DNA from: Lasiodiplodia sp. COLG20
Lineage: Eukaryota; Ascomycota; Dothideomycetes; Botryosphaeriales; Botryosphaeriaceae
Assembly (NCBI GenBank): GCA_009801085.1
Contig: VNWV01000013.1
Coordinates: 1 to 64,000 of the forward strand
Reading direction: 5' to 3'
Length of the DNA stretch: 64,000 nt
A program made the position numbers and the translations under genes. Positions 31,701 through 56,358 of the stretch are shown here, in pieces (position 1 is the stretch's first letter; every line of letters begins with the position of its first letter). The notes under the pieces are model-generated. The model ran no database searches, was not told where the DNA came from, and saw nothing but the letters and a program-made list of their open reading frames with translations.

Positions 31701-32417
31701 AACCTTTGCTCGTTTGATGGGTGGTATGCCCTGTTCGATAGAGGTCAGCAGATGCGCTAGAAGGTTTTCTATACTATTTCTTACCATGGTCTGTTGGAAC
31801 TGGTCAAGCACCATGCGAAGTTCGTTCGGCGCCATGCCCAGTACAGCCCAGCCCCAGGTGCCAGGACGGTCCTCTATCGCTCTTGACCGTACAGAGGTGA
31901 GCCTGCACAGTCTGACAAACAGCCTCGCTATCTCGAGCGTCGCGGCATATAATGATGCAAAATCGGTAGCAATGGCCAGTGCACCGAGATGTATCAGCCC
32001 CCCACAGACTCCCAGCGGTACCGGCCGGGGCCCAGTACTGCTCACAAGCTGCGGCTCTCGTTCCGCCCACCTTTTTCCAGTTAGCAAGGACCATGCACTC
32101 AATGTTGATGCCAGGACTTACTGTAGGAGCATTGCTGCTCTCACGACGTGCAGCAGGACAGCATGCGCCATACCCACCTCGTCGGTTGTGTGACGATATC
32201 GATCTGCGAGATCAAGAAAACTGGAGTAGATGCCGAGGCTGTCTCGCAGGACCCGATCCATTCCTGCTGATTCTTCCTTGACTGCCTGACATAACTCGTC
32301 GAGGAAGGTTTTGAGCCATGGTGTTGTTGCAGCTTGTCGGTAAAGCTGGTCTATGCCGTCGGCCCAGGAGTCTGTCTGATCTCCAAAGTAGAGGATTGTC
32401 TGCGGACTGGACGCCAT
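25792..32417 (-). CDS. Non-reducing polyketide synthase, SAT-KS-AT-PT-ACP-TE
   Basis: Iterative megasynthase of about 2,090 residues, start ATG at 32417, about six short introns. Domains in rough order: SAT (1-370; catalytic Cys in LGVCGGLIHLGA), KS (385-805; Cys in SLDSACASSTSAM, His in VEMHGTGTQIGDP and VKANVGHSEA), malonyl-CoA AT (940-1245; MGHSLGEYAAL), product template (about 1310-1630; His in FDGHRIRGVSVAPGS), one ACP (about 1695-1770; Ser in GVDSIMGIEIAS), a long Pro/Ser-rich linker, and a thioesterase (Ser in IGGFSGGAMVAYE, His in ADHLEMPMPGHVH). There is no C-methyltransferase or reductase domain. By analogy with resorcylic acid lactone synthases, it would accept a reduced chain through SAT, extend it with malonyl-CoA, aromatise it and release it as a macrolactone. 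The PT Asp motif reads GESLVHLAGF (see findings). Paired with the reducing PKS at 39802-47430. Confidence 0.92.
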
Positions 32418-32598: not shown

Positions 32599-32670
32599 TA
32601 GTGCTTACACGTAGCGCTTAGGGACTGTAGTTGCGGTGCCTGCATATGTACGAAGTTCTTTAGTGCTTAC
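32599..32670. promoter_or_regulatory. TAGTGCTTAC sites in the non-reducing PKS promoter
   Basis: Exact TAGTGCTTAC occurs at 32599-32608 and 32661-32670, with a variant TAGCGCTTAG at 32612-32621. They lie 180-255 bp upstream of the start at 32417. The same word recurs in front of the other cluster genes. Confidence 0.65.
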
Positions 32671-32727
32671 CTGCATAAATCCTATCTCGCATGACGTTCT
32701 CGCCACCATATTATCTCGGTCACCGAA

Positions 32728-32943
32728 GCAGGGCTCTCACGAAACGCAAGCGGCTGGAGAAGCGACAAGCAAGCGACTTGCCAGCGGGCCGTTTTGGCCT
32801 GCTTGATTAAAATTGCCAGATCAAGTGTTCCGCTTAGTAAATACGCAAAAATGGTCGCTTGTTTGGCAAGCGTCAAGCAAGCGGATCGATGATCTCCTCG
32901 AAGGCCACTTGAGGTTGCCAAGCACGCTTGCGGAGAGCCCTGC
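32728..32943. mobile_element. Candidate MITE with 11-bp terminal inverted repeats
   Basis: GCAGGGCTCTC at 32728-32738 is repeated inverted as GAGAGCCCTGC at 32933-32943. The inner flanks are also imperfectly complementary (CGCAAGCG near both ends), and the interior is full of AAGCAAGCG or AAGCGG words. There is no coding capacity. A clear target-site duplication was not found. It sits about 310 bp upstream of the non-reducing PKS start. Confidence 0.5.
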
Positions 32944-34990
32944 GTGACTGAAACCATGTTCTCAGGGATCAAAATTGACAAGGAAAGTAAATAAAGCTGC
33001 CGAAGTGGTACAAAAAATAATTTCCGTGGGGCTCTGTCCTGGATAGAATAGCTTGTGTTGTCTTACCTTGCCATCTTGCCAAGACGTCCCGATTAAGACG
33101 GTAGCATGGGGCCTTTTTTCCCCCTTAACGCAGTTCCACTAAAACATTTCCTTAAAGATGAAGTGATTCCAAGTTCTTTTCATTCTATAAGTCCAGTTTG
33201 GAGCGACATTCTATAGTCAAAACTCCAGGACGTTGAGTGCCCACCACACTAAAGCAGATGATTCTTGAGGGTAATGAACAGCATAAAGGCGGCACAGCTT
33301 CTACCCTTGTACATATCAAGAGGATTATCTACTCGTGGTATCAGGCTGCTAGTATAGTTGGTACATGGCTTAACTTTCTACACACTGAACAAAGTCTGCA
33401 GTAAAATTGAAGCTAGATTTCCCGCGCTCAACTTGCATGGCTAAGGGCTCACCCACACCAAGGACTATAGAAAACTTGTTTTGCGTGCAAAATGTCCTTC
33501 GTCGGTGTGACCTTGAGGACCGCGGCTTTCAATTACCCCGCTTTAGGCCTGCAATAGGCGTCGTCATGTGAGAGGTCGCCTTTGTCTATTTGACATGCAT
33601 ATGCTAATGAATCATCTCATACTCGCCTTCCTGGACGCCTTTTATGCGTAAGCCCTTGTATGCGTACAACGATCCGGAGTTTATCAGCTCATACAGATCC
33701 GCAATGGCCTAAGGATCACTGAATCCCCCATGACTTGTTAAAGCATCAGCGTTGGCCTGTTCTTGTTCTCCAATAATTCAGGACGGCTGGTTTTGGCTTA
33801 CAATACATATCCGCGGCAGCGTTGAAAGCTTTGCGTTCTGGGAAATTGAGCCATTGCGATGGATTTATACAAGGGCAGACGTAATGAGTCCCTGAAAACG
33901 ACTCGCTTTCTGCACAGTGTCGACCCCGTTGTCAACATCGTGTTGTTGGGCTAGAGCCTTTATACGAACTTATTCAGCTTGCTTGTTTGAGCAAATATCC
34001 TTCTTTAGCGACACCATTTAGTATATAAACCTCCTGCCTTGGCTTTCATTCTCACATCTTCAGCACTTTATTCTTCCATAACGGACTCAATTAGATGTTT
34101 ATTCTCCATCATTACCTAAGACACAGCAACTACGGCTCATACCACATGGAACTGCTCCAATTAAGTCCAAGTCAAAGAGCAGAAGATCTACACATCACGC
34201 CCGCCAATGACCAACCACAAAAGATCTTGTTTGAGGAATTTCGCTTTGATCATGTACTTTAGCTTCTCCCAACGATATGTCCAGTCTAAGTAATCTGCTT
34301 ATCAATCTCGCTTTTTAACTATCCGCAGATCCACATGTATCATTCCGCTATTAGTATAATGGATTAGTCTCTCAGGCCTAGCAGCATATACATCTTCTCG
34401 TAGCTCAGAGTAGGTCTGACGATACTTCTTAAGGTAAGCGCTAAGCCTAAGGAGGTAAGATCCAACGCACACAAGGCCCTATCATGACGCGATAATGCGG
34501 CTCTTCCGTCTTTTCTTGCAAAACGTCGAGGACGGGGCAGCATACATTGTATTGCCTTGCCAAGCGTGGACCCTGTCAGTCTGCTTGGTACGTTGATGCA
34601 CAGAGGACTTCTTCCCTCCCTTCCTCTCGGGGCTGCTAAGAACTATAAAATTAGTAACACTAAGCCAATTATAGCAGGTATCTACTCCTAATTCCACTTG
34701 TAAGCGGTCAATTATGCGAGTTCCGAGTCAGTGAATTTATGGCATTTGCAAGCGCAAGCGGTCGATCTTGGCGAATCCCTCGAGCGAGCCCAAAATACCC
34801 GCTGACAACTCGCTTGCCTGATCGCCTGTCAGGACCCCTGTCTCGGGCCGGACTCCGAAGATACGCTGATATGGTGCCATATGCAATCCTCCAGACTCGA
34901 TTGACGCCTGGCCTTTTTCCGCTACTTATAGTTAGCCTTCAACTTGATACATACTGCAGTACCGTAGCAGTTGTGCACTATCCATCAAAG
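32944..34990. other. Long gene-free region between the non-reducing PKS and the regulator
   Basis: About 2 kb in which the longest frames are short and unrecognised; much of it is AT-rich. It may hold both divergent promoters and decayed sequence. No oxygenase or other tailoring gene can be supported here. An in-frame ATG at 34739 could extend the regulator's N-terminus, but I prefer 34991. Confidence 0.5.
34434..34443 (-). promoter_or_regulatory. One-mismatch cluster motif upstream of the regulator
   Basis: GTAAGCGCTA is the reverse complement of TAGCGCTTAC, which differs from the cluster word TAGTGCTTAC by one base. It lies about 550 bp before the chosen regulator start, consistent with weak autoregulation, but a single copy may be chance. 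Confidence 0.3.
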
Positions 34991-36181
34991 ATGCATCCAG
35001 CAACCAGTAATTCGGTCCCGCAGTATTCCGACGCTCCCCGTCGAACATCTCAGACCGTCGTCAGCGCTTTCAGTGCTTGCGCAAACCCAAACGAAGATTG
35101 GACCAAGATATCAGATTTCGGGGAGCGTCGTCGGATCCAGAGCAGGATTGCTCAACGGAATTACCGTAAGTGAGCGTCACTCGTCGGCCCTCTGGATACG
35201 GCGCAAATGTATTCAATTGTGCTAATCAAGTGCTATCTTTCAACAGGCATAAAGCAAAAACAGCGGTTAGAACGAACAAAGACGCCAACACCTGAGCTCA
35301 CACCCGAGGAGCCGTCCACCCCTGAGTCCGTTCCGGACTTCTCTCCACTCGATAGCCAGCAGGATGGAATGCAGGACTTGTACGACATTTTCACGTCCGA
35401 TGCGCCGCAGCAACAACGAACCCCGCCGTCAAGTGATGACGGCGCTATGCCCACACAGCAATTTACTCCCCAATCCTCGACTGAACAATCCAACCCTGGA
35501 ATCACAACATACCCTTTCCATGCCAGAAACCAGCAGCAACTGACACCCGGCTTCTACGACACTTCACTCTTGCAACAATCTCCCCGGTTCAACAATGATT
35601 GCGTTACGCCGTTGCAACGATCTACCTCAACCACACAGCCCTCATGCGTGCACACACCAACTGCTGGAACCACGCCATACCTCTACAACAGTGGCAGCAT
35701 GGAACAGCCACTACCCAGCTTTCATAACGGCTGCGCACAGAGGGCGCCTCATCAGCACTGCCAAACCATGAGCCACGACTGCGGCGGGTACCCTCAGCAA
35801 CGCGCTCGCCCGATATTCGCAAACACACAACCTACTTGCGCGTGTACTCCCACACCTGGATCCCCTTCATGTCACGCGCAGCAAATGCACCATCTCTACG
35901 ACAGAGCGCCTCAGTGGGCGTCCTGGACCAGACCGGAAGACTACACACGGGGATCGTATGGCCAAATTGAAGCTTCCCGGGACCTGAACGTGCCCTTTTC
36001 TCGCCCTCTGCATCCGTCGCATTCATACATGTCATTACCACCGCCGACTGAGCGGGGTTGCTGCTGCCACCACCACGCCAACCACCACAACCACACACAC
36101 CTACCGCCCTTCGCACATCACTCATCAACGAACGGCTTTGATGTCCCTCATCCGTATCACGATTCCCGAATGTTACTCTAG
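34991..36181 (+). CDS. Cluster regulator with bZIP-type basic region and no leucine zipper
   Basis: Probable pathway-specific nuclear transcription factor. Exon 1 (34991 to about 35166) encodes DWTKISDFGERRRIQSRIAQ followed by RNYR, the basic region of Yap/Pap1-like fungal factors. An intron with donor GTAAGT and acceptor TTTCAACAG (ending about 35246) joins it to IKQKQRLERTKTPTPELTP. The expected heptad leucines do not follow; instead there is a Pro/Ser/Thr/Gln-rich region and a His-rich tail (CCCHHHANHHNHTHLPP). The usually invariant Asn of the basic region is Ser51. Total length is about 365 residues. It lies inside the cluster between the two halves, as bZIP-type regulators do in related clusters such as the zearalenone one. 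The start could instead be 34739. Confidence 0.75.
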
Positions 36182-37057
36182 GCGAGCAAGCGACAGACGT
36201 TCGTTTCACAGACGACCTCTTTCTAAGAGTTATGGTTTGACATTCGATCAAGGCCAGGTATCCTCTGGCACTTAAGTGCGGTCTTTATCTATGCTATTAA
36301 TGCTGTTGACCTCATCCCAATTTTTCGTCTCTGCAAATTTCGCCGACACGACGCTCTTTCTTCTCCACCTACAAGAAAGAAGTGAAACTAGAATAAACAA
36401 TTAGCGCGGCGTCTAGATCTAGACTATCGTAGATATAGAACAATATCAAAAGTCTTTTCTGCTTGTTGGATTGCTATCGACGTGTTACATTCATTCTGAT
36501 ACAGTTCTACCGACAGCGAAGGGCTCAGATGCCTGCTTTCATGAAGCCATTGTTTCACATGGAGCTCATCGGCATGCAGCGGGAAGTCCGGATAGCTTGT
36601 CATACCCTAGTCGCCGATGCAGGCCCTGGTCTGTAGCGATAAGAAGCGTGCATTAGCCGACGCAACAAATACTCCATTTATGCACATGAACAGGGGTGCT
36701 CATGCTTACGAAGCTCGGAAAGTGCCGGGTGGAGTAGGAGATGGGGGTGGGATATGGAGAAGGACCCTTCCACTTTCACTGTGGTGCCTTCAATCGCGCC
36801 GCTATGGTGGCACTAAACCTAGGTCTTCGAATCTAGATATGGCTGCGTCTTGAGGCAGGCATCAGTATCACCGAGGGCTTCAGCGTCTCTTCAGTCACAT
36901 CAACATCACTCAGTCGTGGTTGTGAAAGATTGTAAGGATCGATGATAACGAGAGATGTAATGATCAAATAATAGGAAAGCGACGTAGGATAGCGTGAAAT
37001 GGATGAAAGTATGAGACACATGTTTTGTGGTAGGACCCTGAGGTTGGCATCCGGACA
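36182..37057. other. Intergenic region between convergent regulator and methyltransferase
   Basis: About 880 bp holding both 3' ends. No coding frame or repeat worth calling. Confidence 0.55.
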
Positions 37058-38636
37058 TCAAACCCTTTTCAACCTGGCTTCGATCACGCCCTGCCAGCCC
37101 GCCTGACCATGCCAAACCCTGACGAATTCCAGCCCTTCCGCATCCAACAAAGCTGCAGTTTCCTTCTCAGTTCTCTCTTTACCACCCGTTGCCAGCCCGA
37201 CAATCTAAAGAATAGCACCCCCTGTCAGCCAATGTGATAATCAGACAAGAGAGTACGGCAATCTTTGCCCAGATTCTAATTCAGGATTCTAAGAATTCAC
37301 TTACGTCGATCAAGTAGCCATTCATGTACTTGCCAGGCTCTGTTCGGGCAGGAATAACCGCGTCGAAGATCAGCAGACGGGACTTCGGAGACATTGCTTC
37401 CGCGATGCGCTTCAGGATATCCCGGCAAATATGGTCGGGATGATTGTGCAAAATGTGACCAAGATGGTAAATGTGTGCACCTGCAGCTGATTAGCACCAT
37501 TTAGTCAGACCGCACAAGTAGCCTTCGAACCTTTGACCGGCTGCTCCGTATGGAAGTCATAGGCCATCATCTCTATCCCTACTTGCTGCGCCGGATCAAG
37601 CTGGGCGAGAGCATCCGGCCTTTCCTGAAGGATCAGCCTCGCAGACGTCCCAAAAACATCCCCGGTCTCCGCTCGGGCAAAGTGGAGAACTTTGCCACTT
37701 CCGCCACCGATGTCGACGATGAAGGCCCGGTCAGGCTCGGCTTGCACTTCCTCTTTGAGAGACGACCACGGGAAGATGCCGCATTCGGTGGTGGGCTCAT
37801 CCATCGCTCGGTTGAAGATGTCGAGGTGCTGTGGAACAGAAGAAAGCGCCTCGTAGAAGGGCTTGCCCTCAATACCATACTCGTAGGCGTACGGCGTCTT
37901 GCAGACATCGTACAAATCCGCTGATGGCCTCGTCTTCAGGTATTCCGGGAGCGAGAGGTAGCTCTTGGCGTACAATGCGCTACGAAATGAGTCTGGTCAG
38001 CGACTAGGAAGCTATGCAGTGATGACGCTTACATCAACTCAAAGGAGCCAACAGCAGTCCCTTTACCCCTGACGAAGATCAGAGATTTGGGAGTGTGAGA
38101 GTACGTCTCCTCAACCGGGGACGCCACTATTCCAGCCGCGACCAAAACTCTCATCACCCGCACTACGTCGATAGTCAGCAGTATGCTCAATGGGCTCTGA
38201 TAAGGTATAGCCGACCTATCACGTCCAGGTCTACACCCACAAGATCGGCGAGTTCTTGAGCACTGATGTTTTCCTTGGCTTTCATTTTCTCGAAAATTCC
38301 CAACTTGATGGCGACATTGACGCAGGAGTATACAGTCACCTGTTGCTACTGGTCAGCACAGACCTTATCTCTAGGCAGCAATCAACGATGCTGCGGGAAT
38401 CTGACTTACATCGGTCCATTGTCTGAAAAACTGATTGAAGTTAGCTATTGCTTATTCCAGAGCGCCTCCAATTAAGTGAAGCTTACCAACTCAATGGGCG
38501 ATTCCAAATCTTGATAGAGACGGTCCACCTGCGTCATCAAGCCCAATCGGGCGGAAAGATCTTCATCCTCCAGCTGCTTCGCATTGGCTAGGATAGCCTC
38601 AATCTTTGGGACGATATCCAAACTGTAAGAACGCAT
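37058..38636 (-). CDS. O-methyltransferase (SAM-dependent, fungal O-methyltransferase family 2)
   Basis: Predicted to transfer a methyl group from SAM to a phenolic hydroxyl of the cluster product. The start at 38636 gives MRSYSLDIVPKIEAILANAK. Exons then give a winged-helix dimerisation region (KLGIFEKMKAKENISAQELA and then LVGVDLDVI), a linker with YAYEYGIEGKPFYEALSS, the SAM motif I FIVDIGGGSGKVLHFA, and the catalytic-region sequence HILHNHPDHICRDILKRIAE, with His in the usual place. The end is GVIEARLKRV at 37058. About five introns; total length is about 400 residues. Its promoter carries three copies of the cluster motif and a 17-bp tandem array. Hypothemycin-type clusters contain a comparable methyltransferase. 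Confidence 0.88.
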
Positions 38637-38716
38637 TTTCTCGACTCTGGATCGTAGTGGACCTGAGACAGACTATGTTTGAAGCAAAACTAGGCCTTTA
38701 TAATTACTTCAATGCG

Positions 38717-38802
38717 CCAATGTTACTCAAGAAGCCAAGTAACTCAAGTACCCGAGTTTCTCAAGACGCCAAGTTCCTCAAGACCCCGAGTTACTCAATG
38801 CG
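38717..38802. repeat. Five tandem copies of a 17-bp repeat in the methyltransferase promoter
   Basis: Units start at 38717 (18 bp), 38735, 38752, 38769 and 38786, with consensus close to CCAAGTTACTCAAGACG. They occupy the 81-166 bp before the methyltransferase start. The TTACTCA core resembles AP-1/Gcn4-type bZIP sites, which is suggestive only. Confidence 0.7.
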
Positions 38803-38943
38803 CCCATACTACTATGCGAATAAGGTAGGAGCGACTCCCGGTTACATAACTCGACGTGGTTATATTAACCGAGAGCCCCATCAACGCCGCTTTCCGAAGG
38901 CTCGCTTCGTGCTGACACGGACGGGAATTAACGGATAGGCTCC

Positions 38944-39006
38944 TAGTGCTTACATGGCCTATCTTCTAAAGATCCGATATGCTTCTAGTGCTTATTTAGT
39001 GCTTAC
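38944..39006. promoter_or_regulatory. Three cluster-motif sites upstream of the methyltransferase
   Basis: TAGTGCTTAC at 38944-38953 and 38997-39006, and TAGTGCTTAT at 38986-38995, all in the same orientation. They lie 310-370 bp upstream of the start at 38636. The 0.8 kb from 39007 to the reducing PKS stop at 39802 shows no gene. Confidence 0.65.
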
Positions 39007-39801
39007 AAAAACGGCGTTCCGTTTGACGCTGACCCTAGTAGAAACCCGGTTACTGGGTAAGTAGGAGGCTATTCTGCACGACTTGCTTGTGCGAACAGTT
39101 CAGCGAAGCAGCTCAAGCCACGGTTTACTTACCGAATTTCTATAACGTTGCTTACTCTGTTGGCATGGTGCGATAAGCGCTGCATTGATTATCAATTTTC
39201 GTCGCTCTCGTTGCAGCTTCATCCCTTAGTGAGGCGGGGCAATTATTCGGCCCCTCGCGTTACCCAAAGTAGACTCTCATGGTCATGTAGAACTTGTACT
39301 ACTGCATCAGTGACTCTTTCCAAATATGTTAATGATGATACGTTGCTCTTGCGGATACTTTGTGTGTCCTCAGCTTCGATATTGGTATCTATTGTGTAGT
39401 AAGCATGGTGAAATCGTTCATTGGGTTGCTTGATAAATTAACCCGGATGGCATGGATCTATACTCAAGTCACCAGACATGGTGCCCTGCTGAATTACTAC
39501 AACATTCTATACGAAAAGTAGTATCTGGTAAGCAAGAACGGCAACACGCGTGTGAGAGAGTGATACCAACTGAGAGTATTTTACGATGTATTGGTAAGCG
39601 ATGGTAACTACTCTCATTTCATCAATCATACCTGAGGGTAGCATACTGGGGACAGTTCTGAGCAATATCAAGCCATACGTAGAAACGAGAGTATCAATTG
39701 TTACCAATATGGTTCCAATTCACAATCTAAAACCAAACTCCATATCCTCCGTCTATCCAGCAGCCCCATCCAACACCCCTCGAAACTCAATCCCACCACC
39801 C

Positions 39802-42800
39802 TCACACCCCCGCCACCAACTTACTCTTCTCCGCAATCTTCCCCGCCAAACTCTCAATCGGCACCGCCGCCAAAATCTCCAACAGCGCCATATTCGCCTT
39901 CAGCTCCCTCGAAATCCAGTTGCGCACCTCCAGCGCCACCAGCGAATCCACGCCGTACCGATACAACGGCCGCCCCGGATTCACCTCCGACGCCGGCATC
40001 TGCAGTATATCCGCCGTCTTCTGCACCAGCGCCTCCGTGATGATCGCGGCCGCCTCCTCCTTCCTCCCCGCTGCCACCTTCCCCAGCTTCGCCGCCACCG
40101 ACTCCCCACCCCCCTGGCCTTCGCCCGCAGCAGCACCGGCAGCGACATTCGCCACGGCCAAAGGCCCGAACCTTGCATCCGCGAAGTAATCCGGCCGTGC
40201 CAGGCCGTGCGCCGCCATGATATCGGCCGTGCCCAGGCCGGTCGTCACCTGCGCGGGGCAGGTTCCTCGCAGTTGCTGGTTGATCAGGCTCTTCATCAGC
40301 GCGTGGAAGGCCGGCTCGCGTATGCCGAGCGCGTGCTCCCACAGGGCGAAGTTGCCCGTCGTGCCGGTTTCGGCGAGGACGCCGACGTCGCGCATGATGC
40401 CGAGGTTGACTGCGACGGCGGGCAGGCCCTGGGAGGTGCGGGAGTGGGCCAACGCGTCTTGGTACGTGTTGCCGGCGGCGTACTGCGCTTGGCCGGGGTT
40501 GCCGTGGATGCCGGAGATGGAGGAGCAGAGGATGAGGAAGTCGAGGGGCGGGCGGGAGGCGGAGGTGGTGGAGAAGTAGGTGTGCAGATTCCACGTGCCC
40601 TGGACCTTGGGGCGCAGCGGGACGGTCCAGTCGGCGTACGACATCTTCTCGAAGACGACGTCGCGCAGCACCATGGCCATCTGGATGACGCCCTTGATGG
40701 GGGGCAGGTCCTGGGAGCATTGAGACATGGCGGCTAGGAAGGACGGCTGGTCCGACACGTCGCCGCGGTACGCCTTGACGCGGACGCCTGGGCTGGCGGA
40801 CAATTCGGCCACGACGGCTGCAGCCTGCGGCGTGGTGTCGCCGGACCGCGAGAGGAAGGCGATGTTGCGCGCGCCCGACGCGACGAACGCCTTCGCGAGG
40901 CTGCGGCCCAGCCCGCCCAGGCCGCCGACGAAGAGGTACGTCGCGTCGGGGTCCAGCTTGAGCGAGTCCTCAGCCTTGCGGAGGACGGGGGCCTCGACCT
41001 TACCACCCTCGTCATCCCCGGCGAACGCCAGCACGAGCTTCCCGCGATGCTTGCCCTGCTGCATGGTGCGGAAGGCGTCGCCGACCTGGCCGACGGGGTA
41101 GACGACGACGGGGGCCGGGGCGCGCAGCACGCCCTGCTGGATCAGCGCGAAGCAGTCGTGGAAGACCTGGTAGAAGGTCTCCGGGTCTTCGAGGAAGAGC
41201 GTGTGGTTGTTGACGAAGGTGAAGGAGGTGCTCTTGCCGAAGGGCCGCATGTCCAGGCGCATGTTGTTGGTGATGTCGCGCAGGCCGATCTCGATGAAGT
41301 GGCCGAAGGAGGCGAGGCAGCCCCACGATGCGCGCAGGAGCTCGCCCGAGAGCGAGTTGAGGACGCAGTCGACGCCGCGGCCGTTGGTGATGCGTTTGAT
41401 GCCCTTTTGAGTGGTGGGTGGTCAGCATGCAGTTGGGAAGAGGGAGCGTGAAGCTGGAGACATTCTTACTTTGACGAAGCTGGCGTCGCGCGAGTGGAAG
41501 ATGTGCTCCTCGGGGATGCCGTACTCCTCCATGATGAGTTTGCGCTTGTCCTCTGTGCCCACGGTGACATAGATAACAAGCCCAAGGTGTTTGGCCAGCC
41601 TGTAAACGTCAGCGATGTGCAACTACGCGAGCGAGTGGAAAATATGCTTACTGTATCGCCGCTTGACCCACACCTCCCGCCGCTGCATGGATCAACACAG
41701 ACTGGCCCTTACGAAGCTTAGCCGCGCAGATGAATGCGTAGTATGCCGTCGTGTGCACGATAGGAGATGCTGCTGCATCTTGGAAGGACATGGAGTCCGG
41801 AATCTTGGCCAATCCATGGTGGTGCACTCGGATTCTGGTCGCGTAGGCTCCGATGTGGACGGTGCTGACGCGATCCCCGGGCTTGAAGTCAGTTACCTTG
41901 CTTCCCATCCTCACGACAACACCACTGGCCTCCAGCCCCAGCGCCTCGACAGGAATGAGACCCATACAAGCCATGACATCCTTGAAACTAAGGGCGCTCT
42001 TCGTTAGCACGTCGTGCGTTGAATAGATACGGGATTACAGCAACTTACTTGATGCCTGCAGCCTTGACCTCGACTTCGACCTCGTGATCCTCAAGCGGAG
42101 GATCCATGCGTTCATCCGGGACGAATCTCAAGGTATCCAAAAGACCAGGGTTACCAATGGTGAGTCGGAGAGCTTCGCCTTTGTCGTGAAGATTCTCGTT
42201 GCGAACGGAGGCTTCCAGATGGTGACGGATGCTTTCGTTCTGCTGGTGGCTCTTGAAAAAGCGGGCGATCTGGGGGAAGCCACCCACTTCTTGGAATTCA
42301 TTGTCGCCGGTGCTGGAAGCGAGGACTCTGGTTGCGAGAGAGGGGCCGTACTGATGTCCTGTCGGCTCGCTGAGATGCAGGATTTGGAACTTGATGCTCG
42401 CGTTCTCGCTCATCATGGTTCGTGCGAGGCCATCGACCATGCCGAAAGCTGGGTTCTCGCCACAGGTGATCCAGAGGAGCCTCTCACAGTTCAAGCCCAC
42501 TGTTCGGACAGTCTCGAAATCGGGCTCGGAGAGGTCCTCCAGCAGTGGCCGCTCGAGCTCCATCAAAGAAATGTATGTTTTGCCCTTGACATCCTCGGCA
42601 CTGATGCTATTGCTCCAAACGCTTATCGAGACCGCGTCACCTTGGTTCTGAAGAGTTTCCTGCAGCACGGAGGCGAATTTATCGGCGGCGGACGTGGCTG
42701 TGGACGGCTGGATGATGACGACTTCGTGAGCCGGCGAGCCATTGGCAATTGGTCCTGTTTGGGCTTCCCGGCTGGAGTATAGAGCAATGGATTTCCCGTC

Positions 42801-45800
42801 CTCGACGCCTGAGACTATCTGGAAGCCCTTGCCCACCAAAGCCGAAACTGCAGCATCATTGCTGGCAGTCACGACGATAGTGGCGTCGGGCTTGGCTAGT
42901 TGCTGTCTCGCCAGGTCAATGAGCTTCTCCAGATTGCTTGAGTTTGAAGGCTCATGCGAAATGATCAACAGATCGGAGGGAGCGTTATCAGCGGGTACTG
43001 GAGCTTTGTTCTCGCCAAGGGAAACGATCTGGCCGAATGCAGGCCCATCACCAGGGTTTGCCACGGCATAACGGATGCGGTCTGGGCGAATGTCGCTTTC
43101 GGGTAACTTCGACACAGCTGCGTTACCATAGTCAGCTGCCTCAGAGATCAACTCGATGACTGTCGATGCCGGATTCTCATGGAGTGCCAGGCGGATAAGC
43201 TGCATTCTACGTTAGCCACACAATCCTAAATTTCTGCCGGATGAGCTTACCTCTGCGAGCCTCTCATGAGCCGGGAATCCGCTCAACACGCGGCTGATCT
43301 CATCCGTCTTCAGCAGACCCAGGGCATAGTTCCACTTCACCTCAGACGTGATGTCAGCCGGATCGACCTCCACGCCGTCCCCATCGCCCTGGCCCACTTC
43401 CATATCCAGCTCCGAGGTCCGGAAGTCCTTGACCGACAGGAAGACCTTGGAGACATCCTTATCGAAAACAGCGATGTCAGACGACAACTCGTTAAAGCCG
43501 TATCTCTCCCCGCGACAGACGCTCGGCAAGACGTAGCCCGCATCGCCCGGGATATCAGCCGAAATCTCCAGCTCGCCGATCGTCGTCGGGACATGGGGCT
43601 TGTCGTACTCAAAGACGCCATTGCCCTTATACGTCGCGCCCAGCGAGCCCTGGAAGATAGCATCGAGCGACGCAGCGTTGATGAGGAACGGCCGGTCGAG
43701 CTGTCCCCTGCTGTACGTCTCCCCGACGTCAACCAGCTTGACATCATACACCGTCTTCCCGGGGCCCGGCCGGCAAAGCTCCACGCCCTGGAACAGCTCC
43801 CCGTAGTTCCACGCCGCCTTGGCAAACTGCTCGTAGAACCTCTCCTTCCCATACACCTCCGCGCACTCGTCGCGCACGCGGTGGTACTCCGCCACGCGCG
43901 CCGCATCCGCCAGCGCGTCCTCTTCCGCCATCTGCGCGCTCCGGTGCTCCTCGTAGTCGATCGCGACCAAGCCCCGCGCATTGTCCCGCAGCTGCGCATC
44001 CGTGCCCACGCACGACGACACCGTCCACTCCATCCAACTCGCCGGCGTCGAGCCCGTCGTCGCGATCAAATGCGGCCGCATGTGCACAATCACCTCGGTC
44101 GGCTGGTCCTCGGGCAGCGCCATGGCCGCAAACAAATTAACGTCGCGCAGCCGGATCGCGCGCGCCGTCTTGCCCGGGTCGACCAGCGCCTGCCGCGCGG
44201 CTTCGAGGATGACGCTGATTATCCCGGCGCCGGGAAAGAGCACCGTGCTGCCGACAGTGTGGCCCCGCAGCCAGGGTTCGTCGGCGAGCCGGATGAAGCT
44301 GCGCCATTGGTGCTCGTTTTCGGCCATGGTGGGGAGGGGCGAGCCGAGGAGGCTGCGGGGCGCGAAGGGCTGCGTCGTGAGTTCGCGGTGGAGGCGCGAG
44401 TCGGCGCGGAAGGTCTTGGTGTGGTTCCATGGGTATGGAGGAAGGTCGGTGAGGAGGCGGCACTGGGAGCCGTCGCCGTTGGCGGTCTGCAGGGAGAACG
44501 AAGCGCCGTGGAGGAACAGGTCGCCGGCGAGCTTGAGGACCGAGTCGAGCGCGTTGGCGCCGCGGGTGAGGGCCGAGCTGTAGGCGACGTTCTTGATGCC
44601 GTGGTGCGACAGGATCTGCTCGACTGGCCCGCCTAGAGCGCTGTGCGGGCCGACCTCGACGAGCAGGTCGACTGTATTCTCTTCTCCGTCGTCGTCGCCC
44701 GAGGAGGAGGAGGATGGCCGGACGAGCTCCTTGACGGCGTCGGCGAAGAGCACGGGCGAGATCAGGTTGCGGACCCAGTAGGAGGGCCCCAGCAGTTCGG
44801 CGTCGACCTCGCTGTTCGTGACGCTCGAGACCATGATGGGGTGCCCGGCGGACGGCTGGGCGGGCTCGATGTCGGCGATGGAGGCGTAGTACTTGCCTAC
44901 CGCGGAATTCATGTGGGAGGAGTGGTAGGCGACGTCGACCTTGAGGCGGCGGGCGAAGACACCGCGCTCTTCCAAGATGGCGCGCAGCTCTTCAAGTGCC
45001 GCGACATCGCCTGAGAGCGTGACGCTCGAGGGAGAGTTGACACAGGCGATGCTCACCGAGCCACTCTTGAGCGCAGCCTCGAGGATGAACTGCCTGGCTT
45101 CCTCTGGAGAGGCTCCAACAGCCATCATACCGCCCTTGAGGTGCTTGAGACCCGCCGATGCGTTTCCCCTGAAGTAAGCTGCCGCTATGGCATCGTGGTG
45201 AGAGAGGGCTCCCATGGTATATGCAGCAGCGATCTCTCCACTCGAATGGCCAACAACCTTCGAGGGAACAACGCCCCACGCACTCAACTCGTCCACAAGC
45301 GCGATTTGTAGAACCGAGCAGATGGGCTGCGAGATGGCGGGTATGCCAAGTCTCGACTCGTCTTTGCCCCTGGACAGCTCCGTGACCGGGTCCCAGTCGC
45401 ATCCGAGCGATTTCAAGATGTCGGCAGATTTCGCAACAGAGTCCCTGAAGACGGGGCGTTCCAGTAGCTCGATGCCCATTCGAGCCCACTGCGCACCCTG
45501 TCCCGTGAAGACGAAGCTTGCCACATATTAGATTCAGCGGATACAGAACTCGGATTGTTTGACTTACCCAATGCGTGCCTGGCTGTTTGCTGCACGAACA
45601 GCATTCTCTCCCGGCTCTGTTGATAGTTTCTCCCGCAACTCGGCCGCGCTCTCGGCCAGGAAGCTGGCCCGCCATGCAAGGCCGGATCGGGAAACTGCGA
45701 GAGTGTGCGCAATGTTGGCAAGATACTCCGGGGTAGATGCAGCCGGGCCGAGGCTGTCCAGGTGCTCCGCGAGCGCGTTGCCCACGCGCTTGAAGCCAGC

Positions 45801-47430
45801 CTGATCTTGACTGCTGAGGACAAATAATCTCTTCCCGCTGTGAAAACCGGCACGCTTCGTAAGAGCGCCGTTGGTTTTGACACCGTTGCTATGGATACCG
45901 TTGGTCTTGACACCGTTGGTGGTGCCGTTGGTGAGAGAGCCGTTGGCGTAATTGTGTCCGGGCTTGAATGATTCCAACACGACGTGTCCATTCGTACCCC
46001 CCATTCCGAATCCACTGACGCTCATGCGCCGCACGCCTTGGGTGATGGGCCAGGGAGTAAGCTTCGTAGGTACCGCCATGTTCCATTCATCAAAAGGAAT
46101 GGCGGGGTTTGGCTTTGACAAATAGATGTTTGGTGGAATCAGGCCATGCTCCATAGCTAGCACACCCTTGATGATGCCAGCCACACCGGCAGCCGCCTCC
46201 AGATGACCAATCTACTAATGATCAGCCACATTTCTCAGGGAAATGGTGGTAATAGACTTACGTTCGGCTTGACGCTACCGACCCACAGCTTCCGCGACTT
46301 AGTTGCGCCCTGCCCGATGGTGCGGTGAATTGCTCCCACTTCTGCTGGATCACCAACTTTGGTTCCGGTACCCTGGAGCATATCTCGTCAGTTCACTTCA
46401 ACCACCCGTTATCTGAGGGTTTCACTTACATGTGCTTCGACGTATTGCGTTGACCCGTAGTCCAAGCCATTCGACTCGTACACGTATTTTATCAACGCAG
46501 CCTGCGCCTCGCTCGACGGCATCGTCACGCCCTGCGTCCAGCCATCCGAGTTCACGCCCGAACCCCGAATCACAGCGCGGACGGAATCCCCGTCTCTCAG
46601 CGCGTCATCCAGCCGCTTCATGACGAGAATGCCACACCCCTCACCTCGGGCGTAGCCGCCTGCATTCTCATCAAACGCCCTCGAATGGCCCTCCGGATTC
46701 AAAAACCCCAAATTAGCCAACTGAAAGTTCCCATCGGGGCTAAGAATCATGCCCACGCCGCCGACAACCGCCATCTCCGACTCCCCCGACCGCAAACTCT
46801 GGCACCCCAAATGCGTCGCCACAAGACTCGACGAGCACGCCGTCTGCACCGTCGCGCTGGGCCCGTGCAGGTCGAAGAAGTGCGACACGCGGTTCGACAC
46901 CATCTCCTCGGAGGTCCCCAGGATGTGGTACTTGGGCATGTGCCCGAAGTCGCGCACCACGCCGTCGCGGTAGTCGCTCATCGACGACCCCATGTAGCAC
47001 GCCGTCTGCGTGCCCGCCACGCGCTGCAGCGGCTGCCCCGCGTTCTCAAGCGCCTCGTACACGACTTCCAGCGCGATGCGCTGCTTCGGGTCCATGGCGG
47101 CGGCTTCGGCGGCTGTGATGCTGAAGAAGGCGGCGTCGAAGGCGTAGGGGTCTTGCGTGAGGAAGTGGCCGCCTTTGGTGGGGAGCACGTTTTGGCGGTC
47201 TTTGGAGGCCGGGTGGTAGAAGGTGGAGGCGTTGTAGCGGTCGGTGGAAGGCGAGTAGGCGTCTTGGAGGATGTTAGTGGCGTTGTGCGTCATTGTGGTA
47301 GAGTGTACGAACCGTTGCCGTTCTTCAGGAGATCCCAGAATCTCGACGGCGAGGTAGCGTCGCCGGGGAAGCGACATGCTAGTCCCACGATGGCGATAGG
47401 GGTTTGTACTGGGTTGCTTGTTGAAGGCAT
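39802..47430 (-). CDS. Highly reducing polyketide synthase, KS-AT-DH-(inactive MT)-ER-KR-ACP
   Basis: Iterative megasynthase of about 2,400 residues, start ATG 47430. A 50-nt intron at 47263-47312 joins FWDLLKNGN to [11 protein letters not shown] and removes an apparent frame break. Domains: KS (Cys in [13 protein letters not shown], His in [12 protein letters not shown]), AT ([27 protein letters not shown]), DH ([17 protein letters not shown], Asp in AASLDAIFQ), a shortened methyltransferase remnant beginning [20 protein letters not shown] without a glycine-rich SAM motif, ER ([27 protein letters not shown]), KR ([16 protein letters not shown], Tyr in [14 protein letters not shown]) and one ACP (Ser in [14 protein letters not shown]). 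There is no release domain, so the chain would be handed to the SAT of the non-reducing PKS. It shares a 520-bp divergent promoter with the GST gene. Confidence 0.93.
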
Positions 47431-47526
47431 GTTTGCGACAGGTTCTACGACACCACTACTGCTGTAACTATTCCAATTCTCGTGTATCTATATTATCCAA
47501 GCCTCCATTGCACGCTGAGCGCCATT

Positions 47527-47790
47527 TAGTGCTTACATTGAATGTACGTAACTGATTTCTGTGCATTTTAGTGCTTATACACCAAAGTTGTCTATCTGTA
47601 ATTGCTGCCTAGCATGTGCTTGTCACGTCGTGTAGGTCTGACATTGCCGGTACCTTTTTTTCCCCGTGTGTAGGACCCTGTAATCCGGCAACGGTGGGTC
47701 TACCCGAACGTCTAAGCACTAGCGGGCGCATCACCCGCAAGGGCCCGCCTTATCTCCTTTCTAGTGCTTACGCCATGCAGTAGTGCTAAC
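47527..47790. promoter_or_regulatory. Cluster-motif sites in the divergent reducing-PKS/GST promoter
   Basis: TAGTGCTTAC at 47527-47536 and 47762-47771, TAGTGCTTAT at 47569-47578, an inverted TAGTGCTTAG (CTAAGCACTA at 47712-47721) and a one-mismatch TAGTGCTAAC at 47781-47790. They form one group near the reducing PKS start (47430) and one near the GST start (47951), so both genes could be co-activated. Confidence 0.68.
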
Positions 47791-47950
47791 AGGGCCGGTT
47801 TCCGGTGCTGGGAACCCTTTTAGCCGACGAAGGATTAAATACCCGCATCCTCCCACCTGTGCCGTCAAACCTTCTCCATCCTTCAGAAGAACGTCGCAGT
47901 GCTCCACACTTCCATTAGCTACGCATTCATCCGTCATTGCAACAGCAAAA

Positions 47951-48710
47951 ATGGTTCTCAAACTCTATGGTTCCGCCATGTCTACTTCTCGTGTCTTGGT
48001 AACGATTCTCGAGAAAGAGCTGCCATACGAATTCATTCGCGTCGACATTGCGAAAGGCGACCAGAAGAGTGAAGAATACATGAAGCTGCAGCCTTTCGGC
48101 AAAGTGCCTGTGTTGGATGATGACGGATTTCTGATGTTTGAAAGTAGAGCCATCTGCAAGTATCTTGACCGGTAAAGCCTTTAGCACCCTGTGTTTCGAA
48201 GCTTTGCCAATACTTCCTTTTAGAAAATACCCTTCCGGAAAGAGGCTGGCCCCGGAGGGCGATGAGGCCTATGGTCGCTTTGAACAAGCTTGTTCTGTCG
48301 AGCAAAGCTATTTCGCCGCTGCCGCGGAGACCATTGGGACTGAGCTTGTGATCAAACCGTACGCATAAGCATTTCCTTTTTCCTGCTGCTTCGATGGTAC
48401 GTGACCTGATGAAAAGCTCTACAGAATGAAAGGCCTTGGTGTCCCGGACGAAGCACGGGTTGCACAAGCCGAAAAAGACCTTGACACAGTTCTTGCGGTC
48501 TACAATGAGATTTTAGCTAAACAGAAATATCTGGTTGGAGACGAGCTGACCTTGGCGGACTTGTTTCATCTGCCTAATGGGGCAGCTTTGAAGGGAGGCA
48601 AATGGAAGGAAGTGTTCAAGAAGTACCCAAATGTGGATACTTGGTTCAAGGGTTTGCAGGAGAAAGAAACATGGATCAAGGCTGCAGCAGAGGCCGGAAC
48701 AATAGCGTAA
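47951..48710 (+). CDS. Glutathione S-transferase
   Basis: Cytosolic GST of about 215 residues in three exons. Exon 1 gives MVLKLYGSAMSTSRVLVTIL with an N-terminal Ser/Thr-rich active-site loop, then the thioredoxin-fold cis-Pro segment QPFGKVPVLDDDGFLMFESR (glutathione-binding VP and ES) and AICKYLDR. Introns follow R at about 48173 and KP at about 48360. The helical C-domain includes YLVGDELTLADLFHLPNG, with the GST N-capping box. In hypothemycin biosynthesis a GST-like enzyme isomerises the enone double bond; the same role here is inference from its cluster position. It is divergently transcribed from the reducing PKS. Confidence 0.87.
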
Positions 48711-49350
48711 TATATGGCGGGCATACAGAAGATGAGGGGTGCCTGGCAACTACAATCGAAGGTTATTATTTTCTTCTAGTAATTAGAAAAACAAAGGATC
48801 AAAATCTGACGCGATGTAGATATGCTTGTTTCTACTACCCGATAAGTTACGCACTCATTCTAGAATGCTGTGTTGCTTCCACAAGAATGCGGCAACTTCT
48901 TTTTGGCCAATAGATTCCGCCATTGTTTGCAGGGTGAAACGCCCAGCACGTGATTCTTCTCACGCTTGTCCGTTGTTCTTTACTTGCTGCGATTAGCGAT
49001 TTCCCCAATTTGAGAGACATTGTTCTATTGCTTCCCTTGATGTGTGGGATCCCGATAACGTGACTGGTCTTTGTATCTCGCCTTTCGAAATCCTACCTCC
49101 AAGATATCGCATTTGATTGCACGTGGTGCTTACCAACGGGCGCACAAACGCAACAGCCTGATCGCTGCACCCACCATTCCTCATCAATATTCGTTCATCG
49201 TACTGCCTTGACTGCTCAGGCGTGTCGAAGGTCGTTGTAACAGCTGCTTCAATCTCTTGCTCAGCTTATTTCCCACGATCCACCCGCTCCGGCCCGATCC
49301 GACCGTTAGCCAGCCTTGAGTGGACGACGCCGCTTGCGTTTTCTGCCCGC
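48711..49350. other. Intergenic region between GST and transporter
   Basis: 640 bp without a gene. It contains one near-match to the cluster motif, TGGTGCTTAC at 49124-49133, about 220 bp before the transporter ATG. Confidence 0.5.
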
Positions 49351-51593
49351 ATGGATCCCGACTGCGACCGCACAACGTCTCTACTGGAGACCGATGGCCT
49401 CATAGAAGGCCGACCGAGGACCTCAAGCCACTTCGAAGATGGCACTCGACGTTACAAACTTTGGACTATGCTTCCCGGGCTCTTGATGGGGTTTGCGCTA
49501 GCCATGCCCCACCTTATCGATGGCGCTAACGCTGCCGAGCTTTGCCTTGATGTCAGCAGACGGAGCGCTGATGTTTGCTGCTTACTCTCAAATTGGTAAG
49601 TGCGTGAAGTCGTCAAGACACAACTAACTCCTCTCAGGATCCGAGCTTGGACAGTTACGGCACGTTTCATGGTTGACTCTAGGCTACATCATCACCGTTG
49701 TCATTGCTCAGCCTCTTGTAAGGACATACTTCCGTGCTTCAACCCTTGCGCCTAACCAATAGCAGTACAGCCGGTCCTCCGACATATTCGGCCGAAGACC
49801 CCCGCTCCTCCTCTCATATACATTCTTTGCGATCGGGATCATTTTAAGGTAATGCATCGCCTACTTCGACTCTCATGTGCTGATATCTGCAGTATCATGT
49901 CCACTGGCTTCTGGTTTCTGTCACTCTCTCGAGCAGTAGTTGGCATCGGTGCCGCTGGTATGGGCTTCATGGTCTCGATAATTCTTAATGGTATTGGCTT
50001 TCTATTTCAAGTGTCTTGCTTTTGACTAACGCTCTGCAGACATTATCCCACTTGAACAGCGTGCCACATGGCAGGCACTATTGATATTTGCTTCATTCGT
50101 TGGTCAGTCGATTGGAGGTCCCATAGGTGGCATTATCGTAGACCAACTTGGGTGGCGAGCGTATGTATGGCTCTGTTGCTTAAGTGTACTTTTGCTGAAC
50201 CTTTGCCAGTGCTTTCGCAATGGAACTACCGGCTGCCATCGTTAACTTCGGGCTCGTATACACCACCCTCGACTTGGAATATTTCACTACCCGGCAAGCG
50301 CCAGAGTCTCCAGAAACTCAAGAGGGATCATCCAGTCCGTCAACCTCAAGGAGAACATCTGAGAGCGGTGACCGCTGTGACACGGACACACGACATGACC
50401 ACCGTCAATTTGACCTCGTTGGAGGTGCCATTTTATTTCTCGCTCTCGTACCGATCATCCTTGCTTTCAACTTGGCAGGAAATGATCTTCCGTGGAGCCA
50501 TCCTGCAATTCCAACTCTGGTTGCCGTAGGAGGAGTTTTGATGGTATCATTTGTGCTGTTCGAAAAGAAAGTTCCCCAAGTACCCCTCATACCGATGGGT
50601 ATGCTCGCACGCCGTTCTGTGTATTCTATCATGGGAACGGAGTTCTCCCGATGCGCGATCGTCATGACAGTACGTTCATTCCTCCCTACTAAAAGGAATT
50701 CACTCACGTCTGCTATAGCTGGCATACCTGGCTCCATTCTACGTCATGGTGTCTGGTCAAGGTTCTACAAGCTTTGGTGGCTCTCTTAGTACCTTTACCT
50801 TTTTTGGCCAAGTAGTCGGCCAATTAATCGCAGGACCACTAATCCAACTACACTGGAGGCCATGGTTCATTTTGACCACAAATAGCGGTATACTCGTTAT
50901 TATGGCAATTATTGTCCGGGGTCGCTGGAAAGGTGAGATCCTATAACCCAAGGCGTGATAGACTGATTCCAACACTTTGAATAGGACATGAGGCACTTGC
51001 CGAACAGATCGTGGAACTTCTTACCATGGGCATCAACACTGGGGCTATGGAAGGTGCCCTTCTTGTCCAGCTTCTGCAAAGTACCGCTCGGAAAGGCAAG
51101 TGGAATTACTTCAATGTGTACATGAGCATAGCTGATGGATCCCAGATCAAGCTGTTGCCTATGGAGTATATCACGTATTTGTGTCCATCGCAAATATGAT
51201 GACTGTGTCCGCTTTGTCATTCATAATTCAGTTTCGCACGGCGAAGTATCTTGAATCAAACCTTGGAGACGCTTACGATGGCGACTTACAAACGGTATGT
51301 TCACAATCCACTGGTCCTACACGAACACTATCATCTGACCTTTCAGCTCGTCAACGAATGCTTGACCAGCTTGAGGTGCCTTGATGATTTGACACCTGAG
51401 GCCCGAAGCCGTGTGAGATACTCTTTTGTGCAATCTGTGCAAGACTGCCTCAGTAAGACTTTCCATTCACAATCTACATTCACAACTTCTGACGCTATTA
51501 TCAGCCTTTGCTTGTGCTCTCACGGGCTTTGGGTTCATCTTTTCGCTACTCACGAGAAAAGACCGCAAAGGAATAACTGCCAATCCCCGTTGA
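49351..51593 (+). CDS. MFS transporter (drug:H+ antiporter type)
   Basis: Plasma-membrane efflux pump, probably exporting the cluster product. The start at 49351 (MDPDCDRTTSLLETDG) is followed by the first membrane segment KLWTMLPGLLMG. After an intron come ADGALMFAAYSQIGSELGQL, IAQPLYSRSSDIFGRRPPLL (the MFS loop 2-3 motif), LSRAVVGIGAAGMG, and GQSIGGPIGGIIVDQLGWRA (motif C-like). Later segments include LVGGAILFLALVPIILAF and STFTFFGQVVGQLIAGPLIQ. The final exons give SFVQSVQDCL joined to AFACALTGFGFIFSLLTRKD and end at 51593. About eight short introns; exon borders around 50.9-51.3 kb are uncertain. RAL clusters usually include such a transporter. Confidence 0.85.
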
Positions 51594-54700: not shown

Positions 54701-56358
54701 TTCAATTGATAATCTAAACAATTAGCTGCTGATTCACATGGGTAAATTAAGAGATATACCTCGTGCCATGTTGATTCTCCGCTGTACGTCGTCCCGTAGC
54801 AAAGCGTATGCTCCTTTAAATTGATAAGTTAATTGTTGTCCCAATGAACGAGTTGCGTACTTTGAAGGTTCCAATTCTGATCTTCTTGTTGTTGTTCAAG
54901 ATTGTTCAAGATTCCCTGAAGTGCTGCGAAAGTTCAGCCTTATGAGCGATAATTTGTAGTGCTGACAGACCTGTTCGGTGAGTGGCGTTCGCAGAAATTT
55001 CGGATGCTTGCACACGCGCAATATTTCGGATATCTGGGCCGTTATCATCAGCGCGTTGCAGTACCTCCATATATATTTCGGTGCAAACAAACCTGCGCGA
55101 CACAAGGCACTTTCTGCCAAATCAATTAGCGTTTCGTGTTCGATAAGAATGGCAGATATGCACACCTTTCTGATGCTCTGCGGCAGCCTCGCGGTCTGTT
55201 TGGTCGGCCAATTGCTTCACCCGATCAAAAATGGCGCTAAACTTGGATCCGGAAGGTGTCAATGCCGCCTTGGCAACCCTTGCTTTTGTTATACGTGACC
55301 GGTCAGCTCAAAAAAAATTTTCAGTGTTACGCCAGGCACCAATCGTACCTGCTGGATTTCTGTGGTAGTGAATTCGTGCGCGGACCAGGTAGTTGATGAT
55401 CCACGCAAATAACTCCGTGACGATTGCCCGAAATCTTTCCGACGCACTGTACAAACTGAGGTAGGCTTCCCACCGGCCTATCTGCTTCAAAATGAGAAGA
55501 ATGGCGTCCGTGATTTGGTCAGAGATTTCTTGCTCTTTGATAGCAATCTGTTGTTTACATTAACCATAGTTCAACCCAGAAAGCATTGCGCTGGAATTAC
55601 CGTGAGCAAAAGACGAATGGATCCCCAGATAAGCGCTGTGACGTGAGGCTGGTGCTGGATCATCACATCCACGACCGGTGCATACTGCCAGAACCAATTG
55701 AGTATCTGGTCGAATTTCTCTCTGCAGCGTGACTTGTCTGCCTGGCTACGTTGCTTCGCGTCGTTTGCTGTGTCGATGAGCTCTTGAAGGCTGGACTGAG
55801 GGTGCGACCCTCCACTCAAGGTTATTTTCTCAATTTTCTTGTCAGGGTCGTTGGTCAGCTTGTCGTTGAAATGCTAAATGAGAACAATTAGAACTGCGCT
55901 GCTAACGGAGAATTAAGCGAATAAATTCACCTCGATGGCAGATTCCCAGATGCTTGCGACAAGGGAGGACGGTCCGGTTGTTTGATAGGGAAGAGAAACT
56001 GTTGGGATTTGGGGGTGGGGTCCTGAAGCATGTGCGACGCTGCTTGGTGCAGGTGCGGGGTCATGAGAGACAGGGGGTGCCGCCATTACGCTCCGAGCCG
56101 CAGTGTATGGCACAAAGGCAGCAACTGAGTCGTCACGCTGGAGCGAGCGATGATGCACGTTGCCCAGACTGAGTCCCATGGGACTTTGATATATGTATGA
56201 CTCCAGTATTTTCCGGAACTCTGACAAGGCTTCACCTCGCGAAAGCGCTATTAGACCCCATGAGCTGGAGCCTCTGTACCCTGCGATTAAGTCGAGGCTT
56301 CCACTGAGCGGCAAGGGCTCTTTCACTCACTCGTCTCTAATGCATCGAGCTCAGCCAT
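51793..56358 (-). CDS. STAND NTPase: N-terminal helical domain, NACHT, TPR-like repeats
   Basis: NLR-like signal-transduction ATPase of more than 1,200 residues; such fungal proteins act in allorecognition or innate-type responses. I place the start at 56358: MAELDALET, a GTGAGT donor, then KFRKILESYIYQS. The N-terminal region includes VVDVMIQHQPHVTALIWGSI and QIGRWEAYLSLYSASERF, resembling the DUF7708-type domain often fused to fungal NACHT proteins. The P-loop GIPGCGKT is split by an intron near 54489-54532 (WIHGIPG joined to CGKTVLARYI). Walker B is DFLLVIDGLDECEP. A long exon continues with STAND winged-helix features (RTFTIQEISRATAI, LVHASVLDYLL) and TPR-like repeats (SRLGEYYNWSGDFDAAFRFL, ALSALATSMLTHDLAHEAAE). 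The small exons at 54.7-55.6 kb are inferred. Confidence 0.82.

Follow-up and report, generated by a model that had tools for sequence, protein, structure and literature searches.

Promoter boxes that are specific to one gene cluster and read by the cluster's own regulator are an already known kind of control element, and the closest described cases are the Api-box with its regulator Apf2 in the apicidin F cluster of Fusarium fujikuroi and the Tox-box with ToxE in the HC-toxin cluster of Cochliobolus carbonum, both regulators being described there as basic-region proteins without a leucine zipper (PMC4109984). In addition, ZEB2 is the basic leucine zipper (bZIP) regulator of the resorcylate zearalenone cluster of Fusarium graminearum (PMC12115441), and among Yap-like bZIP proteins RsmA has the site TTAGTAA (PMC7232220) and Yap1 the site TTACTAA (PMC3865217). 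Here we analyze the first 64 kb of a Lasiodiplodia sp. COLG20 contig (VNWV01000013.1, contig C5), referred to throughout as the window, in which a nine-base word, TAGTGCTTA, recurs in the promoters of a resorcylate-type polyketide cluster. We favor, with somewhat better than even confidence, the reading that this word forms the core of an activator box peculiar to the cluster, whose most likely reader is the regulator encoded in the cluster itself.

The locus resembles the Api-box/Apf2 system in that a short motif is enriched in the promoters of a single metabolite cluster, and in that a regulator encoded within the cluster combines a basic region of bZIP type with the lack, here as judged by eye, of a leucine zipper; the Api-box is absent from its regulator's own promoter in the text cited, and the regulator promoter here has a one-mismatch copy only (PMC4109984). 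The two differ in that the Api-box, TGACGTGA, is nearly palindromic, unlike the present box, in that Apf2 carries four ankyrin repeats, of which none was detected in the present regulator, and in that the Api-box was tested by promoter mutation, whereas the present box is known from sequence alone (PMC4109984). Tox-box/ToxE is likewise a cluster box common to divergent promoters together with a basic-region regulator lacking a zipper (PMC4109984), whereas the ankyrin repeats that are described as contributing to ToxE binding have no detected counterpart here. ZEB2 offers a further parallel as a bZIP-type regulator in a resorcylate cluster, although ZEB2L homodimerizes and the present regulator has no recognizable zipper (PMC12115441). 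The RsmA and Yap1 sites have letters in common with the box (PMC7232220, PMC3865217).

Results

Both strands of the window together contain nine exact copies of TAGTGCTTA, all between 32599 and 47770, whereas 100 dinucleotide shuffles of the window gave a mean of 0.18 copies and a largest count of 3. All nine lie inside three promoter regions of the cluster, which hold two, three and four copies; the word is the commonest 9-mer in the intergenic DNA of the cluster (4,898 bp), and the rest of the window has no exact copy, as a preliminary description of this DNA had noted. Against the whole 43.5-Mb assembly of 88 contigs, the word occurs 182 times and the reversed control word 268 times, so that the control is the commoner of the two. 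The cluster holds 9 of the 182 copies, and the densest other 16 kb of the genome holds 3; similar density in unrelated promoters, which the preliminary description had named as the finding that would speak against the word, is thus seen nowhere else in the assembly. The genome rate predicts 0.063 copies per 15.2-kb stretch, giving a Poisson probability of about 4e-17 for nine, and 0.020 copies in the cluster intergenic DNA, both figures assuming that copies are independent. The 10-mer TAGTGCTTAC has 83 copies in the genome, six of them in the cluster, and the remaining 99, in which TAGTGCTTA is followed by A, G or T, include three from the cluster. When at most one mismatch to the 10-mer is tolerated, the window has 13 places vs. 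a shuffle mean of 2.05 and a largest count of 7, and because shuffled sequence can reach 7, any lone one-mismatch copy may be due to chance, such as the one at 34434 for the regulator or the one at 49124 for the transporter. An Rfam scan returned nothing at the gathering threshold.

A pattern scan of the window confirmed the position of every copy in the preliminary description. Two plus-strand copies of the exact 10-mer precede the non-reducing polyketide synthase (PKS) gene, at 32599..32608 and, as TTAGTGCTTAC, at 32661..32670, lying 182 and 244 bp 5' of the modeled ATG. The O-methyltransferase gene is preceded by three plus-strand copies, an exact 10-mer at 38944..38953 (approximately 308 bp 5' of the modeled ATG), a T-ending copy at 38986..38995 (350 bp 5' of the ATG and 42 bp past the first) and an exact 10-mer at 38997..39006 (361 bp 5' of the ATG and a further 11 bp on). 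Four exact 9-mer copies occupy the 520 bp that separate the highly reducing PKS gene from the glutathione S-transferase (GST) gene: an exact 10-mer at 47527..47536 on the plus strand, 97 bp 5' of the reducing PKS ATG; a T-ending copy at 47569..47578 on the plus strand, 42 bp past it; an inverted copy at 47712..47721 on the minus strand; and an exact 10-mer at 47762..47771 on the plus strand, 180 bp ahead of the GST ATG. This gives six exact copies of TAGTGCTTAC and two T-ending ones, as originally described, while the inverted copy, which had been grouped with them, ends in G rather than C or T. The one-mismatch copies are also real: TAGCGCTTAC at 34434..34443 on the minus strand, 548 bp 5' of the regulator ATG; TAGTGCTAAC at 47781..47790 on the plus strand, in the reducing PKS/GST promoter; and TGGTGCTTAC at 49124..49133 on the plus strand, 218 bp ahead of the transporter ATG. 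A fourth, TAGTGCTGAC at 54957, lies outside the cluster and had gone unnamed. Exact copies therefore stand at the promoter regions of four of the six cluster genes (both PKS genes, the methyltransferase and the GST), and the claim that the word marks the cluster promoters is supported at the methyltransferase, at the non-reducing PKS and in the region shared by the reducing PKS and the GST. The regulator and the transporter have a single one-mismatch copy each, which could be chance.

Of the nine exact copies, the plus strand carries eight and the minus strand one. The preceding base is C in five and T in four, and the following base is C in six, T in two and G in one; the box is Y-TAGTGCTTA with a next base that is mostly C or T, or GTAAGCACTAR on the opposite strand. 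The word had been interpreted as two TTA(G/C) half-sites in direct orientation (TTAG-TGC-TTAC); since only four of nine copies have T before TAG, the left half is better written YTAG and direct half-sites are not the best reading, whereas the accompanying remark that the box is unlike the usual inverted Yap/AP-1 sites is a fair one. The same letters are also compatible with an imperfect inverted TAR-N3-YTA and with GCACTAR, a Yap-like heptamer, adjoining GTAA. Spacings between neighboring copies of 42 bp (twice), 62 bp and 11 bp are near whole helical turns, but spacings of 50 and 143 bp also occur and phasing is therefore not established. The 42-bp spacing is seen a third time in a pair outside the cluster (C56:1967118/1967160, in addition to 38944/38986 and 47527/47569) and may represent four helical turns or, in at least one pair, duplication.

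Flanks were compared over 20 bp per side, omitting the base adjoining the word (38 bases in all). Copies in different promoters were identical at a mean of 9.1 of 38 bases (26 pairs), against a background of 9.6 with a standard deviation of 2.7, and this chance-level likeness suggests that the copies are separate binding sites. A longer repeat as the shared unit was rejected on the same comparison, in which flanks within promoters scored slightly higher. Degenerate copies were likewise considered and set aside: six cluster-promoter places have two mismatches to TTAGTGCTTAC, but four had already been counted, and two new places vs. 0.75 expected are no clear excess. Ordinary Yap sites do not serve as the cluster code either, as the cluster promoters have TTACTAA/TTAGTAA at two places only, 32834 and 34651 (vs. 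0.31 expected), and these share the non-reducing PKS/regulator region.

The sole regulator-like gene noticed in the cluster encodes a Yap-like basic-region protein of 369 amino acids (34991..36181, plus strand, with an intron at 35167-35247). Its basic region, DWTKISDFGERRRIQSRIAQRNYR, occupies residues 45-59 near the N-terminus and is split by the intron after its final Arg; Ser51, encoded by AGC at 35141-35143, stands at the position of the invariant bZIP Asn. Yap-type basic regions have the signature NxxAQxx(F/Y)R, and the regulator reads SRIAQRNYR, sharing the AQxx(F/Y)R part with Yap and RsmA but having Ser51 where these have Asn; correspondingly, the box has GCACTAR adjoining GTAA rather than TTACTAA. 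A homologue search with the regulator gave 390 matches at E ≤0.001, of which 120 were examined, and a second search with residues 20-72 contributed 120 of 358, for 180 distinct proteins across both. Its sequence places the regulator in a fungal family that is widely conserved, and among the matches listed Asn occupies the Ser51 position in 178 of 179 readable homologues, P0115 being the exception with Ser; P0001, which is 98% identical to the regulator across 84% of it, lacks the basic region and was left out of the 179. The regulator shares the KISD-ERRRIQ-RIAQRNYR residues of fungal RRRIQNRIAQRNYR basic-region proteins, one listed match being named ClrC-like, and departs from them at the Asn. 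The same genome contains four further weak matches to the regulator, of which the two readable ones (C67:230258-230404 and C88:336174-336305) both have Asn. P0115, a JGI metagenome protein on an 18-kb contig, is alone among the matches listed in sharing a Ser-type basic region, DFGERRRIQSRIAQRKYR, with the regulator; it is joined, possibly via an unspliced intron, to the fungal transcription factor domain PF04082.

Pfam gave no match to the regulator above the cut-off and no ankyrin family at E ≤1, and no leucine heptads were seen by eye C-terminal to its basic region. Membership in the bANK regulators (the ToxE and Apf2 kind) was rejected, as C-terminal ankyrin repeats are absent at E ≤1; the basic region itself was found by homology, without a bZIP Pfam match, and the absence of heptads was judged by eye only. 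Asn-type relatives mostly continue KKLKKRLEDLERRA and then show no zipper by eye, and for one of them, P0002, bZIP_1 matched only below the cut-off; the lack of a zipper thus seems to be a family trait and Ser the individual one. A search for a relative of the basic region with a solved structure found none at E ≤10.

Copies of the word outside the cluster number 173, and they form close pairs more often than expected: 2 vs. 0.07 within 100 bp, 4 vs. 0.27 within 400 bp (P about 2e-4) and 5 vs. 0.68 within 1,000 bp, an excess that was spotted before being tested. The pairs within 400 bp lie 5' of a HET-domain gene (C56:1967118/1967160, at 227 and 269 bp), a nonribosomal peptide synthetase (NRPS)-like gene with AMP-binding, carrier and reductase parts (C67:2527021/2527067, at 499 and 545 bp), a P450 gene (C1:5235034/5235201, at 307 and 474 bp) and an S41-like peptidase gene (C26:104633/104993, at 308 and 668 bp), all with start codons picked by eye; the fifth pair is at C67:2110138 and 2110918. 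The flanks of the HET pair are alike at 16 of 30 bases on one side, which suggests that it may be a local duplication. These four pairs hint at a wider regulon. Among 100 of the 268 copies of the reversed control word (95 recomputed, 5 alone on their contigs) the closest pair is 3,483 bp apart, but the control is a weak one because only 0.66 control pairs within 400 bp would be expected genome-wide. A direct search for pairs within 30 bp found none for the control and one for TAGTGCTTA, which by its spacing is 38986/38997. The possibility that the word is common to all PKS loci was rejected: of 34 Acyl_transf_1 matches genome-wide (these are exon pieces, and this cluster contributes two), one other PKS place, near 15 kb on C12, has a copy within 10 kb, proximity having been partly computed and judged by eye for the rest of the 182 copies. 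The C12 copy, a 10-mer at C12:18124, is approximately 2.3 kb from the acyltransferase match at C12:15846 and may be there by chance.

Genes of the cluster were modeled from Pfam matches and a simple splice model, with starts modeled or picked by eye and with partial models for the methyltransferase and the transporter. The non-reducing PKS (25792..32417, minus strand) has the order SAT-KS-AT-PT-ACP-TE, PT being matched as PS-DH, and its eight exons encode 2,076 amino acids with no internal stop. The O-methyltransferase (37284..38636, minus strand) matched Methyltransf_2 on one of three pieces scanned, its exon structure being partly modeled. The highly reducing PKS (39802..47430, minus strand; 2,396 amino acids) reads KS-AT-DH-ER-KR-ACP and is followed by the GST (47951..48710, plus strand), with GST_N and GST_C pieces, and by the MFS transporter (49351..51384, plus strand), for which MFS_1 matched on one of three pieces scanned, the start was set by eye and the 3' end is approximate. 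As in resorcylate PKS pairs, the highly reducing PKS adjoins a SAT-type non-reducing PKS with a thioesterase. Over its full length the reducing PKS has 93% identity to curS1, a Lasiodiplodia theobromae protein, and it has 71% identity to a Hypomyces subiculosus PKS labeled HPM8, whose product we take to be hypothemycin. The product of the present cluster is probably a resorcylic acid lactone, and a lasiodiplodin is our guess on account of the genus and the methyltransferase. Lasiodiplodins are given as frequent L. theobromae products in the text cited (PMC7405015), and a literature search on two lasiodiplodin PKS names found nothing on the present cluster among the matches listed.

Other features of the window were also recorded. 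A 17-bp (34-bp) tandem array of GCCAAGTTACTCAAGAA lies immediately 5' of the methyltransferase start (38716-38798). In the non-reducing PKS/regulator intergenic region there are three AAGCGACAAGCAAGCG-like words (32760-32883), bracketed by an 11-bp inverted repeat (32728-32738 and 32933-32943). An NACHT-TPR (NLR-like) gene at 51793-54492 adjoins the cluster, with the one-mismatch copy at 54957 beyond it. A HET-domain protein is encoded at 8810-10141, and the model at 12214-14578 is HET-like by eye.

Discussion

The density and placement of the word make it very probable that some factor binds the word as a regulatory site, and it is moderately probable that the cluster's own regulator is what reads it. 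One factor acting on the box copies would co-activate both PKS genes, the methyltransferase and the GST, and the likeliest such factor would be the regulator at 34991-36181, with its Yap-like basic region and no recognizable zipper; we infer that the sites would be occupied, that this regulator would be the binder and that the effect would be one of activation. Several observations weigh against this proposal. In Pfam the regulator has no match to any bZIP family at E ≤1, and its binding might have been lost through the Ser at a position that contacts DNA; the regulator's own promoter and that of the transporter have one-mismatch copies only; and the close pairs outside the cluster would suit a factor with wider duties. 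Additionally, flanks of copies within the same promoter are identical at a mean of 11.8 of 38 bases (10 pairs), with a best value of 17 of 38 for 38944/38986, and given this likeness some copies may be local duplicates. The copies at 38944 and 38986, which agree at 17 of 19 bases in a 19-nt stretch terminating in the word, are perhaps a small duplication.

The alternative that survives best, possible though unlikely in our estimation, is that the binding site is real but that its factor is encoded elsewhere, for example by an Asn-type relative such as that at C67:230258-230404 or by a global regulator, with the cluster regulator having another role or none. The excess of outside pairs within 400 bp, upstream of HET, P450, NRPS-like reductase and S41-like peptidase genes, is consistent with such a factor, as is the presence of Ser at the invariant Asn in the cluster regulator. 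However, the density of the word in the cluster far exceeds that in the rest of the genome, and a regulator of DNA-binding type sits inside the cluster; moreover, this regulator may itself have outside targets, and the C56 pair may be a local duplication.

It is highly improbable that the word instead works as a signal at the RNA level or in splicing. Read along the coding strand of the two PKS genes and the methyltransferase gene, it becomes GTAAGCACTA, which resembles a fungal 5' splice site and would fall in the 5' leader, and eight of the nine exact copies in the promoters of these three minus-strand genes read GTAAG or ATAAG in gene sense; however, copies occur 11 bp apart, one is inverted, the orientation is opposite in the GST direction, and the conserved 9-mer runs beyond GTAAG. 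Just as improbable is a spread repeat or statistical accident, for although the 38944/38986 duplication-like stretch, the same 42-bp spacing at 47527/47569 and the somewhat raised likeness of flanks within promoters point that way, between-promoter flanks are at chance level and the genome-scale probabilities are extreme.

If the cluster's own regulator does read the box, then Ser51 is a possible reason for the unusual site. In Pap1, according to the text cited, the invariant Asn contacts the adenine of the base pair of the first thymine and is conserved in other Yap proteins, and Yap8, with Leu at the Asn position, reads a restricted site (PMC3865217). The laboratory mutant Zta(N182S), described in a preprint, carries the same Asn-to-Ser change at the invariant bZIP Asn, and its preferred site shifts from TGA(C/G)TCA to TCA(C/G)TGA, with ATCACTCAT given as the canonical 9-mer (PMC13228511). 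Zta is unrelated to the present regulator, has a zipper, and the change was laboratory-made, so that the comparison is an analogy only. On the opposite strand of the box, GCACTAR equals the Yap-like TTACTAA with its second base changed to C and its first base also changed, and the change of the Zta half-site from TGAC to TCAC, again with C as second base, is the analogue of TTACTAA to GCACTAA. A doubtful but specific history can be drawn from this analogy, namely that a conserved basic-region regulator of fungi was duplicated, that the cluster captured the duplicate, that a change of Asn to Ser51 rewired it to read the GCACTAR box instead of TTACTAA, that the promoters then gathered copies, and that Ser would be the cause of the new site. 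The first base of the heptamer, which differs too, speaks against rewiring by Ser51. Furthermore, GCACTAR occurs 16 times in the window, 7 of them elsewhere, and all nine in the cluster promoters lie within the full nine-base word; as these promoters never have the heptamer outside the word, the heptamer is not in itself the unit and the TTA at the other end must matter, which lowers the standing of the rewiring history.

According to literature searches, three things are new here: the word, the density at which it occurs, and a candidate reader in which Asn has naturally given way to Ser. A full-text search for TAGTGCTTA found no fungal metabolite cluster among the matches listed, and in a search on cluster motifs only the apicidin paper was relevant among the matches listed. 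Cluster-specific boxes predict which genes are co-members of a silent cluster and which regulator belongs to them, and the present box is unusually clean for this purpose, with nine copies and one core; the word also nominates four candidate targets outside the cluster. Should the Ser-type regulator read the box, a duplicated bZIP-like factor would have been made private to a cluster through a residue that is constant in almost all listed relatives. If the rewiring were also true, it would constitute a private channel between regulator and cluster that is illegible to other Yap proteins, and a natural counterpart of the laboratory Asn-to-Ser mutant.

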